In this document: piece after piece, positions 22,231 through 29,387 of the stretch
Layout of the letters: each line of letters starts with the position of its first letter
How positions within the stretch are numbered: position 1 is the first letter of the stretch
Notes under the pieces: generated by a model
What the model was told of the DNA's origin: nothing
Databases searched by the model: none
Seen by the model: only the letters and a program-made list of their open reading frames with translations
NCBI RefSeq assembly: GCF_900182905.1
Contig: NZ_FXUF01000013.1
Span: 1-64,000 of the forward strand
Length of the DNA stretch: 64,000 bases
DNA from: Anoxynatronum buryatiense
GTDB taxonomy: Bacteria > Bacillota > Clostridia > Peptostreptococcales > Tindalliaceae
Reading direction: 5' to 3'
Made by a program: the position numbers and the translations under genes

Positions 22231-23192
22231 AATCCCTCCACAATGAGATAATAGCATCAAAGAAAGCGATGGACCATGAATCATGCAACCATCCGCGAAC
22301 TGCAAATCAGCCAAGTTGAAGCATACCGGAGCAGTGATAAACCTGCAAAGGTCTGGTGCGAAGAAAACCAGTTGAACCTTCACACTTTGAAATACTGGAT
22401 CAGGAAACTGAACCGTCAGGCAAAGGACAGCACCAGCCCCAATGGGTGCGTTTAAATCAGAATCCACCTACTTCTGTTGGCATCACCCTTCGAATGGGAA
22501 CTATCACCATTGAAGTCACAGATGGGTTTGATTCCCAGCTCCTTGGTGAAGTCATCCAAGTGTACCTGGCTGTGGGACCCACCGATCTCAGAAAATCCAT
22601 TGACTGCCTGTCCGTCATTGTTCAGGAACACTTTCAGCTGGATACCTTTTCCAGAGGCCTGTATGTGTTCTGCAACCGGCTCTTTGAGCTGGAAAGGGAG
22701 TTGCCAGAAGACCGTTACACTGCCCGCCTGGAACAGTCAAGGCCTGTGCTGGAGGCCTTCTTGGCGTGGCTGAAAGAAAACAAACCTCCGCCCTTCCCAA
22801 GTCACCCCTGGGAAAAGCCATTACTTACTGCTTAAACCAGTGGCTCCGGCTGGAAGGGATGGCCGACTGGAAATGTCCAACAATCGGGCAGATCGGGGCA
22901 TCAAACCCTTTGTCATTGGCCGGAAGAACTGGCTCTTTGCCAACACCTCCAAGGGAGCCAAAGCCAGTGCCATTATCTACATCATTGTAGAAACTGCCAA
23001 AGCCAATGGCTGAGTCTTACCTATTTGAAAAACTCCCCAACATGGATCTGATCGATCCAGCAGTGATGGAGAATGTTCTTCCCTGGTCAAAAGCGTTGCC
23101 GGCTTCTTGCTTCAGTGGTGCTAAGCCGCTGGTTTAGTTCATTTTATCAGGGCAGTGGTTCAGGGTCTATGTGGACAGTAATTGACGCTTAC
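22201..23192 (+). mobile_element. IS66 family remnant, copy A (both ends present, interior deleted)
   Basis: The left end GTAAGCGTCAAAC (22201) and right end GTAATTGACGCTTAC (ending 23192) are matching IS66-type inverted ends. The interior is about 1 kb instead of the usual 2.5 kb, because most of tnpB and the first half of tnpC are missing. No 8-bp target duplication matches across the ends, so the flanks have been rearranged. Confidence 0.85.
22276..23136 (+). pseudogene. Fused remains of IS66 tnpA, tnpB and tnpC
   Basis: The first 60 codons (22276-22455) encode a TnpA N-terminus (helix-turn-helix, NLHTLKYWIRKLNRQ). A frameshift leads to the TnpA C-terminus (GTITIEVTDGFD), then the TnpB start (VYLAVGPTDLRKSIDCL...GLYVFCN). 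That joins directly to the TnpC C-terminal half (RLFELERELPEDRYTARLEQ). The tnpB-tnpC joint is at the shared bases TGCAACCGGC, so it looks like a microhomology deletion. Further small deletions and frameshifts follow before the TnpC end (SCFSGAKPLV). Confidence 0.85.
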
Positions 23193-25130: not shown

Positions 25131-25284
25131 ATGTTCCCATCCGCCTGTATGGCTACCAGACCACCCAGGCCAGCAAACACCCTTGACGCCTTCCTGAAAG
25201 GCTTCAAGGGGTATCTGCACACTGACGGGTATCAGGGCTACAATCAGATTCCCGGGGTGAAAGTCATCGGCTGTTGGGCTCATT
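25131..25284 (+). pseudogene. IS66 copy B tnpC, segment left of the RIT element
   Basis: The segment encodes YGYQTTQASKHP (one frame) then FLKGFKGYLHTDGYQGYN and VIGCWAH, the core of an IS66 transposase. It is abutted on the left by IS3 orfB and interrupted on the right by the RIT element exactly after the codons for GCWAH. The reading continues at 28791 as ARRMF. Confidence 0.88.
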
Positions 25285-25309
25285 ATCCGAGCAATATGAT
25301 TATCCGAGA
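25278..25309. repeat. Left terminal inverted repeat of the RIT element
   Basis: A 32-base sequence beginning GGCTCATTATCCGAGCAA matches the complement of 28732-28763 at 31 of 32 positions. Internally it holds two direct ATTATCCGAG copies (from 25283 and 25300) flanking CAATATG. Confidence 0.9.
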
Positions 25310-25412
25310 GGATATCTGAAAGCAGCGTAAAAACCGACTCAATCTGATATCTTCTCCAATAATACTCATCTCCGATAGAATGGGATTACAAACATTCTAA
25401 GGAGGTATTATT

Positions 25413-26645
25413 GTGAATCCAGAAGAAATTAGAAACCTATCGTTTGGAGGATTGCTTGACGAATTATTGCAAGATCTCGAGGAAAAGTCTTATGCTAAAC
25501 TGACGTTGTGCAACTATCGCCGGACACTCAGAAAAATTGACTCTTTTATGGTTAAACAAGGTATCGATGTATACACTCCCGAAATTGGCATACAGTACTA
25601 CGAAATCTACATTGCTGAGAATGAACTGGGCTCCTCACGGCAAAGATTTATATTCACAACAATCCGAAGGCTAAATGACTTTTATTGCGGCAAGGATTAT
25701 CAAATTCAGGAGAAACAGAAAATAGATCAGATGCCAAGAAATTATGAGCATGTGTTGGTTCTGTATGCTACAGCGTGTGCTGAATCGGGTAACAAGGAAA
25801 ACACTATCGAGAAGAAGAAACGATGTGTTCGCGTTTTCTTTAGAAAATGCATGTCACTTGGGTGTTTAGACATTCTATCCTTGAACGCAGCTTGCATCAC
25901 GCGAGCTTGCCTGGCAATCAAGAACAAGGATACTTTGGACGTGGTCAGAGCATTCCTGATATTTTTAAGCAGCAGAGGAATGCTCGAAACAGATTTTTCA
26001 CCACTTGTTCCACGATACAAACAACCCGTTAAAATACCAGAAACCTTTAGTGAAGAAGAAGTCTGTAGATTTGAGGCTGCCGTCAACCGCTCAAGTGATG
26101 TTGGTAAGAGAGACTATGCAATGCTGCTCTTGACGACAAGGCTGGGTATGAGATCTGGAGATATCGCAAAGCTGTCTCTGGATGAGCTGGATTTTGAGCA
26201 CGAAGAAATTTGTTTCATACAACAGAAGAACGGAGAGATGCTACAACTCCCGATGTTGTTGGAAGTCAAAAAAGCATTGACTGAATACATTAGCAATGTA
26301 CGTCCCAGTGTAGCAATTAAGTCGGTATTCTTGCGACACAGAGCACCCTACCAGGGAATCACCACTTCTGTCCTTCGATTTGCAACAGCAAAGTATTTTG
26401 ATTTAGCCGGCATTGATATATCCGCACGAAAGCATGGCCCTCATACATTTAGGTCATCTTTGGCCAGTTCAATGGTCAATGATAATGTTCCATACGAAGC
26501 TGTCAGGACTATCTTGGGACATTCTGATCCCGATGCAATAAAGCACTATGCAAAGCTCAACATAGAAAAGCTGCGTGAGTGTGCCATAGAAGTACCAGAA
26601 CCGACGGGCTCATTTAAAGCATTCCTTGAAGGTGAACGGCCATGA
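25413..26645 (+). CDS. ritA: RIT element tyrosine recombinase A
   Basis: This 410-residue tyrosine recombinase has a SAM-like core-binding region (about residues 10-180) and a catalytic domain (about 205-390). The catalytic Arg is in TRLGMRSGDIAKLSL, the HxxR box in GPHTFRSSLASSM, then LGHSDP and the nucleophile Tyr in IKHYAKLN. It cuts and rejoins DNA at element ends through a covalent 3'-phosphotyrosine. The start is GTG with AAGGAGGT upstream. Its last four bases overlap the next gene (ATGA). Confidence 0.92.
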   Translation: MNPEEIRNLSFGGLLDELLQDLEEKSYAKLTLCNYRRTLRKIDSFMVKQGIDVYTPEIGIQYYEIYIAENELGSSRQRFIFTTIRRLNDFYCGKDYQIQEKQKIDQMPRNYEHVLVLYATACAESGNKENTIEKKKRCVRVFFRKCMSLGCLDILSLNAACITRACLAIKNKDTLDVVRAFLIFLSSRGMLETDFSPLVPRYKQPVKIPETFSEEEVCRFEAAVNRSSDVGKRDYAMLLLTTRLGMRSGDIAKLSLDELDFEHEEICFIQQKNGEMLQLPMLLEVKKALTEYISNVRPSVAIKSVFLRHRAPYQGITTSVLRFATAKYFDLAGIDISARKHGPHTFRSSLASSMVNDNVPYEAVRTILGHSDPDAIKHYAKLNIEKLRECAIEVPEPTGSFKAFLEGERP

Positions 26646-27625
26646 TCCAGTTTAGGAGTGTATTGCAAGATGAAATTACCGATTTCTTGGCACTTCGCAA
26701 AGAAACAAAAAGCAAAAGCACCTATGACCACGATTGCCACACGTTTAGGTTTTTAGACAACTACCTCTGTTCTATCAATTGTGACGATAAGAATCTCACA
26801 GAAGAACAGATGACCGGCTGGAGTAGTACCCTTGGAGGAAAGAGCAGTTCTATTGCCAACGTGGTGCGTGTTATCAAAACCTTTCTGGTGTACCTTAAGG
26901 GATATGGAGTTAATGCTTATATTCCACCAGTTCCAAAGGTCAGCGATGATTACATTCCGTATATATTCTCTGATGGTGAATTGAAACTTATATTCTCCAT
27001 TGCAGATACCTTGCAAAAGACAAAACCACGAAAGAATAATCTTATTCACGTGGAGTTTCCGATGATTTTGCGCCTCATGTGTGGATGCGGGCTTCGCATC
27101 GGTGAAACGCTTTCGTTAAGAGTAAAAGATGTAGATTTTGATATCGGTGTGCTGACACTGAGGCACACTAAAGGTGATAAGCAAAGGCTTTCACCTATGC
27201 ATCCTTCTTTGACAAAAATCATGAGACAATACTGCATGGCCATGGGGATGATCGGTTGTCCCGAAGCATATCTTTTTCCCACCTCGGATCCGACGGAGCC
27301 GGTGACTGCACATAATACCCAGCATAAGTTCGATTTCATACTGGAACAGGGTAATATCTTCCTGCTTGGAAGAAAGAAACATCAGAGAGGCCCATGCTTG
27401 CATTGCCTTAGGCATGTGTTTGTATTCCAGTCTTTTGCTAAGGCAGAACAAGAAGGTCGCAGAATTGATGACATTGTTCCATACCTTTCCATCTATCTGG
27501 GGCATGACAGTCTGAAAGAAACAGAAAAATACATGAAGTTTAGCAGCGAAATGTTTCCGGATGCCATGGAACTGTTTGATGGTTACACTGCGCAAGTATT
27601 TCCGGAGGTGAATTTTAGTGAATAA
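26642..27625 (+). CDS. ritB: RIT element tyrosine recombinase B
   Basis: This 327-residue tyrosine recombinase starts within the ATGA overlap with recombinase A. Catalytic Arg is in CGCGLRIGETLSLRVKD, the HxxR box in CLHCLRHVFVFQSF, then LGHDSL and the nucleophile Tyr in TEKYMKFSS. The N-terminal core-binding domain covers about residues 5-110. Tight overlaps imply fixed stoichiometry of the three recombinases. The role division among the three is unknown for this family. Confidence 0.92.
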   Translation: MIQFRSVLQDEITDFLALRKETKSKSTYDHDCHTFRFLDNYLCSINCDDKNLTEEQMTGWSSTLGGKSSSIANVVRVIKTFLVYLKGYGVNAYIPPVPKVSDDYIPYIFSDGELKLIFSIADTLQKTKPRKNNLIHVEFPMILRLMCGCGLRIGETLSLRVKDVDFDIGVLTLRHTKGDKQRLSPMHPSLTKIMRQYCMAMGMIGCPEAYLFPTSDPTEPVTAHNTQHKFDFILEQGNIFLLGRKKHQRGPCLHCLRHVFVFQSFAKAEQEGRRIDDIVPYLSIYLGHDSLKETEKYMKFSSEMFPDAMELFDGYTAQVFPEVNFSE

Positions 27626-28646
27626 ACCTTCGCGATTTTTGGAGTTGCTGAACAGTTTTTTTACAAGCTACATGCCCTGTTCCATTGGAGCAAGCCCTCA
27701 CACGGTTACATCCTACAAATATGCTTTTCGGTTACTACTGGAGTTCATGTATTCCACAAAGGGAATTCCTGCCGATAAGATCTCCTTTGAACAACTGGAT
27801 TTTCAAACCCTGACAGAATTCCTTGACTGGATAGAGAAGGATCGTGGCTGCAGTGCATCAACAAAAAACCAGAGACTTTCAGCTATCATGTCTTTTTCGG
27901 ACTATGCTCAGAACCGGGATTTTGCTGCTGCTTCAGTATTTCGAAGCGGTGTTATTAAAATTCCCGTGAAAAAAGCTCAGAAAAAGCAAAGAGCGGTGCT
28001 ATCCGTGCAGGAAGTCTCAATACTCCTTCGCTTACCTAACGACAGTAAGAATATCGGCCTCAGAGACAAGGTGCTACTTAGCTTAATGTATGCAAGTGGA
28101 GCAAGAGCACAGGAACTATGCGACCTGACGGTAGGAAGCGTACAGTTTAACACAAAAGGAGCTACCCTGAACATCAAAGGGAAAGGCGGGAAGTCAAGGC
28201 GCGTTGGTATTCCAGACAATTGCTCAAAGATGCTGCAGAAATACATTTCGCACCGCCGACTGAACGCAAAGCCTGACAAGCATGTTTTCTCAAGTCAAAC
28301 CCATGAGCACATGACTATTTCCTGCGTTGAAGGGATTTTTAAGAAATACGTACGACAGGCTAAGGTTGAGAATCCAAGCTTGTTCAAAGAAGACAGTTAT
28401 CCACCTCATTCCATGAGGCACTCAACTGCAAGTCACATGCTGGAAGCTGGTGTTCCAATTGTAGTCATAAAGAATTTTCTTGGTCACGCATCGCTCCAAA
28501 CAACGCAAATCTATGCAGAATTGTCAAAGAACGTGGTGGATAAACACTTGAAAGAATGGAATGAAAAATGGTTCTTTCATGACTCTGAAGAAACGAGAGA
28601 ATCTAAAGACAAAAATGAGCTGCCGGATTTCTTGTCGATTAGATAA
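27618..28646 (+). CDS. ritC: RIT element tyrosine recombinase C
   Basis: This 342-residue XerC/D-like recombinase starts at a GTG overlapping the previous gene by eight bases (GGAGGTGAA upstream inside that gene). Catalytic Arg is in YASGARAQELCDL, Lys in KGKGGKSRR, HxxR in PHSMRHSTASHML, then LGHASL and nucleophile Tyr in TQIYAELSK. It has an N-terminal SAM-like domain and a short acidic-lysine tail. Confidence 0.92.
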   Translation: MNKPSRFLELLNSFFTSYMPCSIGASPHTVTSYKYAFRLLLEFMYSTKGIPADKISFEQLDFQTLTEFLDWIEKDRGCSASTKNQRLSAIMSFSDYAQNRDFAAASVFRSGVIKIPVKKAQKKQRAVLSVQEVSILLRLPNDSKNIGLRDKVLLSLMYASGARAQELCDLTVGSVQFNTKGATLNIKGKGGKSRRVGIPDNCSKMLQKYISHRRLNAKPDKHVFSSQTHEHMTISCVEGIFKKYVRQAKVENPSLFKEDSYPPHSMRHSTASHMLEAGVPIVVIKNFLGHASLQTTQIYAELSKNVVDKHLKEWNEKWFFHDSEETRESKDKNELPDFLSIR

Positions 28647-28731
28647 ATCATAGGCTTAGGTCAGATCATGGTTAGGTTATCCGAGAAAAAGCAGAAAGTC
28701 TCTTGAAATTAGGCGATTTTTAACATTTCTT

Positions 28732-28763
28732 CTTGGATAATCATATTGCTCGGATAATGAGCC
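28732..28763. repeat. Right terminal inverted repeat of the RIT element
   Basis: Complementary to 25278-25309 with one mismatch. It ends ATAATGAGCC and is followed by the recombination-site-like dyad at 28757-28790. Confidence 0.9.
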
Positions 28764-28790
28764 TTATCTTACTTCTCGAATAAGGCTCAT
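28757..28790. other. Probable recombinase core site at the right RIT junction
   Basis: ATGAGCCTTAT (28757-28767) and ATAAGGCTCAT (28780-28790) are perfect 11-base inverted arms around a 12-base spacer. This is the layout of a tyrosine-recombinase crossover site. The outer half ends in the GGCTCAT shared with the left boundary. A matching full site is not present at the left boundary. Confidence 0.65.
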
Positions 28791-29387
28791 GCTCGGCGTA
28801 TGTTCACCGATGCCTTGAAGGTGCTCACCAAGGAGAAGGAACCCCTCTCCCATACCAGGTCCTCCGAAGGGCTGGCCTTTTGCAACCGGCTCTTTGAGCT
28901 GGAAAGGGAGTTGAAAGACCTTTCGCCAGAAGACCGTTACACTGCCCGCCTGGAACAGTCACGGCCTGTGCTGGAGGCTTTCTTGGCGTGGCTCAAAGAA
29001 AACAAACGTGCCGCCCTTCCCAAGTCACCCCTGGGAAAAGTCATCACTTACTGCTTAAATCAGTGGCCCCGACTGGAAGGGATTCTCCTGGATGGCCGGC
29101 TGGAAATCTCCAACAACCGGGCAGAGCGGGGCATCAAGCCCTTTGTCATCGGTCGAAAGAACTGGCTCTTTGCCAACACTCCCAAGGGAGCTAAGGCCAG
29201 TGCCATTATCTACAGCATTGTGGAAACGGCCAAAGCCAATGGTCTGAGTCCTTTTCACTATCTAATGCACCTATTTGAAAAACTCCCCAACATGGATCTG
29301 ACCGATCCAGTAGCGATGGAAAATGTCCTTCCCTGGTCAAAAGCGCTGCCAGCTTCTTGCTTCAGTGGTGCTAAGCCGTTGGTTTAG
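28791..29387 (+). pseudogene. IS66 copy B tnpC, segment right of the RIT element
   Basis: In-frame continuation of the IS66 transposase from ARRMFTDALKVL to the stop after SCFSGAKPLV, including the C-terminal motif LEISNNRAERGIKPFVIGRK with the conserved NNxAER pattern. Without the RIT element this would join the segment at 25131-25284, but the 5' half of the gene is also missing, so the transposase was already dead or partial. Confidence 0.88.

Follow-up and report, generated by a model that had tools for sequence, protein, structure and literature searches.

The window analysed here is a 64,000-nucleotide stretch of the Anoxynatronum buryatiense genome (contig NZ_FXUF01000013.1, positions 1 to 64,000). 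At 25277-28789, on the + strand, three overlapping genes for tyrosine recombinases lie between inverted arms and interrupt tnpC, the transposase gene of an IS66 element. The inserted element is of a known kind, a RIT (recombinases in trio), with the genes ritA, ritB and ritC. Its parts and the adjoining host gene are arranged as follows (IR-L and IR-R, left and right inverted repeats).

25137-25282, + strand: upstream remnant of IS66 tnpC, with the codons G-C-W-A-H at the left junction (PF03050 profile 106-155/156), behind a truncated IS3 orfB
25277-25282, + strand: 6-bp core GGCTCA, the plain (linker-free) junction; repeated at 28784-28789 and, inverted, at 28758-28763
25283-25321, + strand: IR-L, with two boxes TTATCCGAG at 25283-25291 and 25300-25308; inverted match to 28719-28757, relatives being alike in layout
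25413-26645, + strand: ritA, tyrosine recombinase of 410 aa with two core-binding domains
26642-27625, + strand: ritB, tyrosine recombinase of 327 aa; ATGA (4-bp) overlap with ritA
27618-28646, + strand: ritC, tyrosine recombinase of 342 aa; 8-bp overlap with ritB
28719-28757, - strand: IR-R, with boxes at 28732-28740 and 28749-28757, placed by the inverted-repeat match
28758-28763, - strand: inner core, TGAGCC on the + strand (GGCTCA inverted)
28764-28783, no strand: 20-bp linker TTATCTTACTTCTCGAATAA, read as two head-to-head recombinase boxes from the linkers of relatives and the palindromes of other RITs
28784-28789, + strand: outer core GGCTCA, the linker-side junction
28790-29387, + strand: downstream remnant of IS66 tnpC, from A-R-R-M-F (PF03050 profile 154-283; PF13817)

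The first-pass annotation had bounded the three genes by 32-base inverted repeats. The first 32 nt of the arms do match at 31/32, and the arms extend to 45 nt (25277-25321 and 28719-28763, 89% match), with 3487 bp between their outer ends. Size and repeats are those given for RITs, ~3.5 kb and ~28-34 bp (PMC3414803, PMC10214605; what we say of the literature here and below refers to the accessible parts of the papers cited). The overlaps of ritA with ritB and of ritB with ritC also lie in the RIT range of 4-8 bp (PMC3414803).

All three recombinases match PF00589 (Phage_integrase), and the translation of each contains the full catalytic set R...HxxR...H...Y, as had been claimed; the catalytic columns are invariant in the RitA and RitC alignments. 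A tree was built of 53 proteins of 18 elements, with the plasmid RITs of pHG1 (L227), C. taiwanensis (L228) and Bacteroides (L229) included. In it the RitA, RitB and RitC rows are each set apart from the rest by a branch supported at 99-100, and the window proteins group with their RitA, RitB and RitC counterparts, those of pHG1 among them. Profile comparison relates residues 1-105 of RitA to residues 106-205 (probability 96.5%), and the two segments match the N-terminal domain of RitC at 93.0 and 98.1%. Two successive core-binding domains have been described for RitA (PMC8138268). The predicted structure of RitC, built from five sequences, has a mean pLDDT of 55.3 and is too poor to judge an extra C-terminal helix; that of RitA, also from five sequences, is poor as well (mean pLDDT 47.5) and was set aside. 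The ratio of nonsynonymous to synonymous substitution (dN/dS) is 0.07-0.22 for each gene, ritA, ritB and ritC alike (five pairs). All three genes are therefore maintained by purifying selection, which fits the earlier impression of a complete element. In the open reading frame listing, the span between the window inverted repeats contains no additional gene, such as one for a protein like TnpC of Tn554 or Srap of SE elements. Judged by its sequence, the window element is probably an intact new member of the RIT family.

The insertion point had been placed between the codons for GCWAH and ARRMF, and the host gene is indeed split there, as GGC TGT TGG GCT CAT / GCT CGG CGT ATG. Of the GGCTCAT reported for both boundaries, GGCTCA is shared and the seventh base, T, is coincidental, since the related locus L034, with the core GGCACA, has C as the next base on the IS66 side. 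The core is exactly 6 bp long, because L034 shares neither base adjoining its core. One end of the window element joins the upstream IS66 half directly via this core. At the other end the right repeat stops at 28763, and the downstream half is reached through the inner core, the 20-bp linker and the outer core. The linker, the third core copy and the clade-wide site described below are features beyond the single-sequence view of the first-pass annotation. The host is IS66 tnpC, as it had proposed, with the refinement that only a remnant is left, ~145 bp upstream (PF03050 positions 106-155) and ~600 bp downstream (positions 154-283). This IS66 copy is itself broken, because its upstream piece is fused behind the truncated IS3 orfB. 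More broken remains of IS66 tnpC lie upstream of the RIT, at 22356-23134.

Empty sites are found in IS66 relatives. An uninterrupted copy on contig C16 of the same genome aligns across the junction, with 301/338 bases identical to the joined flanks of the window and no gap at the join; its core is GGTCCA, compared with GGCTCA in the window. In genome G873 the IS66 copies L284, L287 and L288 have an empty GGCCCA site, at which an element end is present in L289. Other copies of the window RIT were sought in its own 4.16-Mb genome, where it is single; relatives were found elsewhere. The uninterrupted IS66 piece on C16 is adjoined by a distant second RIT (L045:2395-5844) with a RitA 27-28% identical, one internal TGA, perfect 89-nt inverted repeats and a 10/10 palindromic linker.

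Relatives of the window RIT come from a contig scan (4 loci), 393 genomes of the order and 398 of the phylum; 391 genomes of the class and 3 genomes around G877 added none to its clade. The clade members found are 8 loci: the window, L034 (same contig as L207), L035, L036, L037, L044 (genome G121), L208 (G877) and L209/L295 (G873). The IS66 GCWAH codons are joined at one end at least in 8/8 of them. The rit genes are co-directional with IS66 in the window and L036, and run against it in L034, L208, L044 and L209/L295. In either orientation the linker adjoins the downstream IS66 half, in 6/6 linker-bearing loci (window, L034, L036, L208, L044, L295). The same linker as in the window is present in L034, L208 and, inverted, L036, and with 1 change in L044. 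In the five copies with both ends, all three cores of a copy agree, but they differ among copies: GGCTCA in the window and L208, GGCACA in L034, GGCCCA in L036 and G873. The linker end of L044 has GTCGCA twice.

Two of these loci carry further insertions. At L036:1233-8104 one IS66 tnpC contains two RITs of different clades, ~235 bp apart, at the HADET and GCWAH codons. At L295:4690-8060 (G873) a second transposon, which seems to have made a short target duplication, interrupts IR-L; as read by eye, this transposon has an rve-type transposase and an AAA-type ATPase gene. The real linker of the L209 RIT lies in L295, behind this transposon.

We consider it highly probable, from the comparison of these sequences, that the element uses a circle with two crossover sites around the linker and homes on IS66 codons. 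As a part of this proposal, the window RIT would be an autonomous element of a Bacillota clade, homing on the conserved G-C-W-A-H-A codons of IS66 tnpC.

In the first stage the element would pass through a circle in which IR-R, a core, the linker, a core and IR-L are adjacent, so that the circle junction reads IR-R, TGAGCC, linker, GGCTCA, IR-L. The excision in this model would restore the IS66 site GGCTGTTG-GGCTCA-TGCTCGG.

In the circle each core, together with the inverted boxes from an inverted repeat and from the linker, would form a dif-like crossover site of ~10-6-10 bp. XerCD/dif has a 6-bp centre between two inverted boxes and uses two different recombinases; in contrast, the RIT is a mobile element and would have two such sites with a single 20-bp linker in common. 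The complex of Rit recombinases would swap strands between one circle core and the target core. As a guess, the three box types (outer inverted repeat, inner inverted repeat and linker) may be meant for the three enzymes.

With the use of the core between the linker and IR-L, the rit genes would come to lie in the IS66 sense, as in the window and L036. With the use of the core between IR-R and the linker they would be reversed, as in L034, L208, L044 and L209/L295. The linker would remain beside the downstream IS66 half, and the 6-bp cores would record former sites.

A linker is common among RITs. The survey started from 87 loci with 81 trios, and 54 of these, with inverted repeats and flanks of at least 30 nt, were scored; 21 trios had no usable inverted repeat (among them L234, L250, L254, L266 and L267, whose script matches were discarded by hand as non-terminal), and 6 were at a contig edge. 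For L037, L219, L062 and the minus-strand element in L036, the ends were placed by means of repeat listings. The script called a linker in 47/54 RITs, one call (L209) being false; with this call included, the linker is at the ritA end in 24 and at the ritC end in 23. A 20-bp palindrome of at least 8/10 is present at one end in 42/54 and at both ends in 0/54, compared with 2.5% in shuffled flanks and 6.2% in a cruder control of random flank places, where N runs counted as palindromes. The linker of the G873 relative (L295), TTATTCGAGAACTCGAATAA, is a perfect palindrome. Among 11 named plasmid loci, L227, L299 and L300 have a linker, L227 and L299 being outside Bacillota. L301 has a strong repeat and no linker in register, and the 'empty sites' which the script gave for the other 7 are meaningless, because no real RIT ends were found there. 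L300, on a Priestia megaterium plasmid, has a 10/10 linker and three GTTGAC cores and lies in the HELTH motif of a peptidase-like gene, as read by eye.

In five genomes, all for clades other than that of the window, copies 99.0-100% identical carry the linker on opposite ends, as predicted for a circle in which one linker has a crossover site on each side. In four of these pairs (L236/L237, L230/L231, L226/L235 and L049/L261) the linker reads identically on the circle, from IR-R to IR-L; in the fifth, L221/L222, it differs at two bases. A sixth pair, L238/L239, has the linker on the same end. The linker half-boxes resemble the inverted-repeat box of their own element at 4.41 of 6 variable positions, versus 2.77 for other elements (0/5000 shuffles; 34 elements, with L209, L058, L246, L211 and near-identical repeats dropped). 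Plain and outer cores differ in some RITs, and two genomes look as if the cores had kept a memory. In G991 the plain core CAAGGG of L231 equals the inner core of L232. In G964 the cores of L226 are TCCACC (plain), ACCCCC (inner) and GCCGCC (outer), and those of L235 are GCCGCC (plain), TCCACC (inner) and ACCCCC (outer). These patterns would fit if a copy of the first element had recombined through the other crossover site; codon constraint limits the information in 6 bp.

The targets of other clades were read by joining the flanks in silico and comparing the codons at the core. The core lies on D-E of HADET in IS66 TnpC (L036 minus strand, L219), on G-K of the IstB Walker A motif (L054, L218, L244, L248, L251), on D-E of the IstB Walker B motif (L049, L238, L239, L247, L261), at K-G just before what we take to be the DDE glutamate (L221-L223, L230-L233, L265), at PQ-GG of a group II reverse transcriptase (L226, L235, L252 and L299 of Rhodococcus) and at CG-IH of an amidoligase (L053, L236, L237). 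The targets of L221-L223 are presumably IS21 IstA, from their EKGNVE motif. Within each target class the core falls on the same codons. The separate flank pieces adjoin in Pfam profiles, at 72/75 for IS66, 102/106 and 159/162 for IstB, 121/125 for RVT_1, 111/115 for amidoligase and 80/85 for Y1_Tnp; Pfam gave no match for both L221 pieces and for one piece each of L233, L217, L051, L212, L210 and L227. A TetR-like target (L217) and an IS3-type HSDRG target (L059, with rve-type Pfam matches as well) were named by eye and are not counted as classes.

The linker keeps to one gene side per class, in 6, 2, 5, 5, 8, 3 and 3 elements, without exception; these 32, the window class included, contain near-identical copies or shared flanks and are not 32 independent events. 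Outside the classes are 17/47: five single or weak assignments (L059, L257, L217, L212, L051), the one false call and 11 unassigned. In a 32-row RitC tree, from which seven near copies were left out, the 7 target classes need 6 changes, the minimum, compared with a mean of 17.1 after shuffling; of the seven groups, two have weak branch support, IstB Walker A (53/75) and K-G (64/82). By these sequences the RIT target follows phylogeny. The identical RITs L238 and L239 (G913) share the linker-side flank, at least near the junction, whereas their plain sides adjoin different IstB halves; this looks like an exchange of gene halves by the RIT, or may stem from misassembly. In viral contigs 15 stretches fit the peptide pattern, none of them a RitC relative; at least 120 stretches there matched the inverted-repeat pattern and were set aside.

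The same anatomy could also serve a strand-biased copy-out as in SE elements, perhaps Tn554, with the donor left unrestored and the circle copied out. We regard this as possible, though doubtful; it is a question of how the element moves and does not conflict with the proposed attachment anatomy. With their 6 bp, and with differences between plain and outer core that in several cases fall on wobble positions, the cores resemble the 6-bp footprint of SE elements and Tn554 (PMC10214605), and several genomes carry 2-4 near-identical RIT copies. However, the window element has no gene of the TnpC or Srap type between its repeats, and the present sequence data are equal for copy-out and cut-and-paste.

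The constant position of the linker beside the same target half within a target class would also be expected if it belonged to the target, or were a palindromic mini-element of its own, outside the RIT. This is very improbable, as empty IS66 copies are without the linker, near-identical elements in different targets keep the same linker in the same circle orientation, and the half-boxes match the box of the element itself. The location of 8/8 clade members in IS66, in turn, might be inherited, if one old insertion had produced a composite of RIT and IS66 that then spread as a unit. We find it unlikely, since the clade members lie in IS66 in either orientation, and their IS66 sequences and core triplets vary. 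Moreover, the single tnpC of L036 holds two RITs of different clades at two sites, and other clades repeatedly hit other codons.

Several observations weigh against a circle that homes on IS66 codons through two crossover sites. The evidence is static sequence, from which we infer the circle, its excision and its transposition alike. A linker is missing from the clade members L035 and L037, whose right ends depart from the rule: no IS66 was found at the right end of L035, and L037 (1073-4544) is joined at each end to the upstream half of a different IS66 copy, the two copies being oppositely oriented and the cores different, which looks like one-ended exchange or inversion. L061-L063, L243 and L268 are also without a linker, and outside Bacillota it is present in 2/10 of the named plasmid loci examined. 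The linker of L036 is inverted relative to the other clade members, therefore the model requires an extra inversion. The window-clade linker scores just 5/10 as a palindrome and is recognised through its identity among relatives. Finally, the three cores are identical in 23/47 elements, which the model explains only if the targets match the element or the cores were equalised, and all different in 14/47 (the false L209 call among them).

The RITs of C. metallidurans CH34 and pHG1 resemble the window element in their overlapping ritA, ritB and ritC, size of ~3.5 kb and inverted repeats. The CH34 copy, ritA1B1C1, interrupts an IS66 gene (PMC2864759) and is described in tnpA, whereas the window RIT is in tnpC at GCWAH. 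The pHG1 RIT (L227) has a 20-bp 10/10 palindrome at one end and three GCGCTA cores, and belongs to a different clade (RitC ~32% identity). A RIT inverted repeat with an overlapping palindrome was described in 2012 without a target rule, in a paper in which RIT ends misfit usual recombinase sites (PMC3414803). A 2023 paper marks three properties of RITs as 'not tested' in its Table 1, namely target specificity, empty site and movement (PMC10214605). RITs have been reported in an IS66 gene, a Tn6049-type transposase gene and radC, none of these papers describing an experimental test of target or mobility (PMC3414803, PMC10214605, PMC8138268, PMC2864759, PMC5385486). Tn554 and the SE and GInt elements, like the window RIT, have several tyrosine recombinases and site-specific targets; Tn554 and SEs leave a 6-bp footprint, comparable to the GGCTCA at both window junctions, and Tn554 has imperfect inverted repeats (PMC10214605). 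Unlike these, with one large recombinase in Tn554 and SE and a further small protein in each (TnpC, Srap, GinD), the window RIT has three recombinases of ordinary size only (410, 327 and 342 aa). A linker that switches sides is not reported for Tn554, SE or GInt in the accessible part of PMC10214605. Further literature searches gave no closer system. We did not find the attachment rule and the codon targeting in the RIT literature, of which our coverage is partial, so we claim no priority.

The value of the window RIT lies in its clean junctions, which together with the relatives give a specific and testable attachment mechanism. The anatomy leads to single-base predictions of how the circle junction reads, which 6 bp are exchanged, which two orientations occur and which target each clade uses. 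In A. buryatiense the element docks on highly conserved codons of another transposon. More generally, we are inclined to think, from the sequences compared, that RITs may be a homing-like family with a dual crossover site, made of two dif-like cores and one 20-bp linker. Each lineage would target the codons of an invariant active-site motif, mostly in genes of other transposons, in the manner of inteins and homing introns, the choice of the core would set the orientation, and the cores would record earlier sites.

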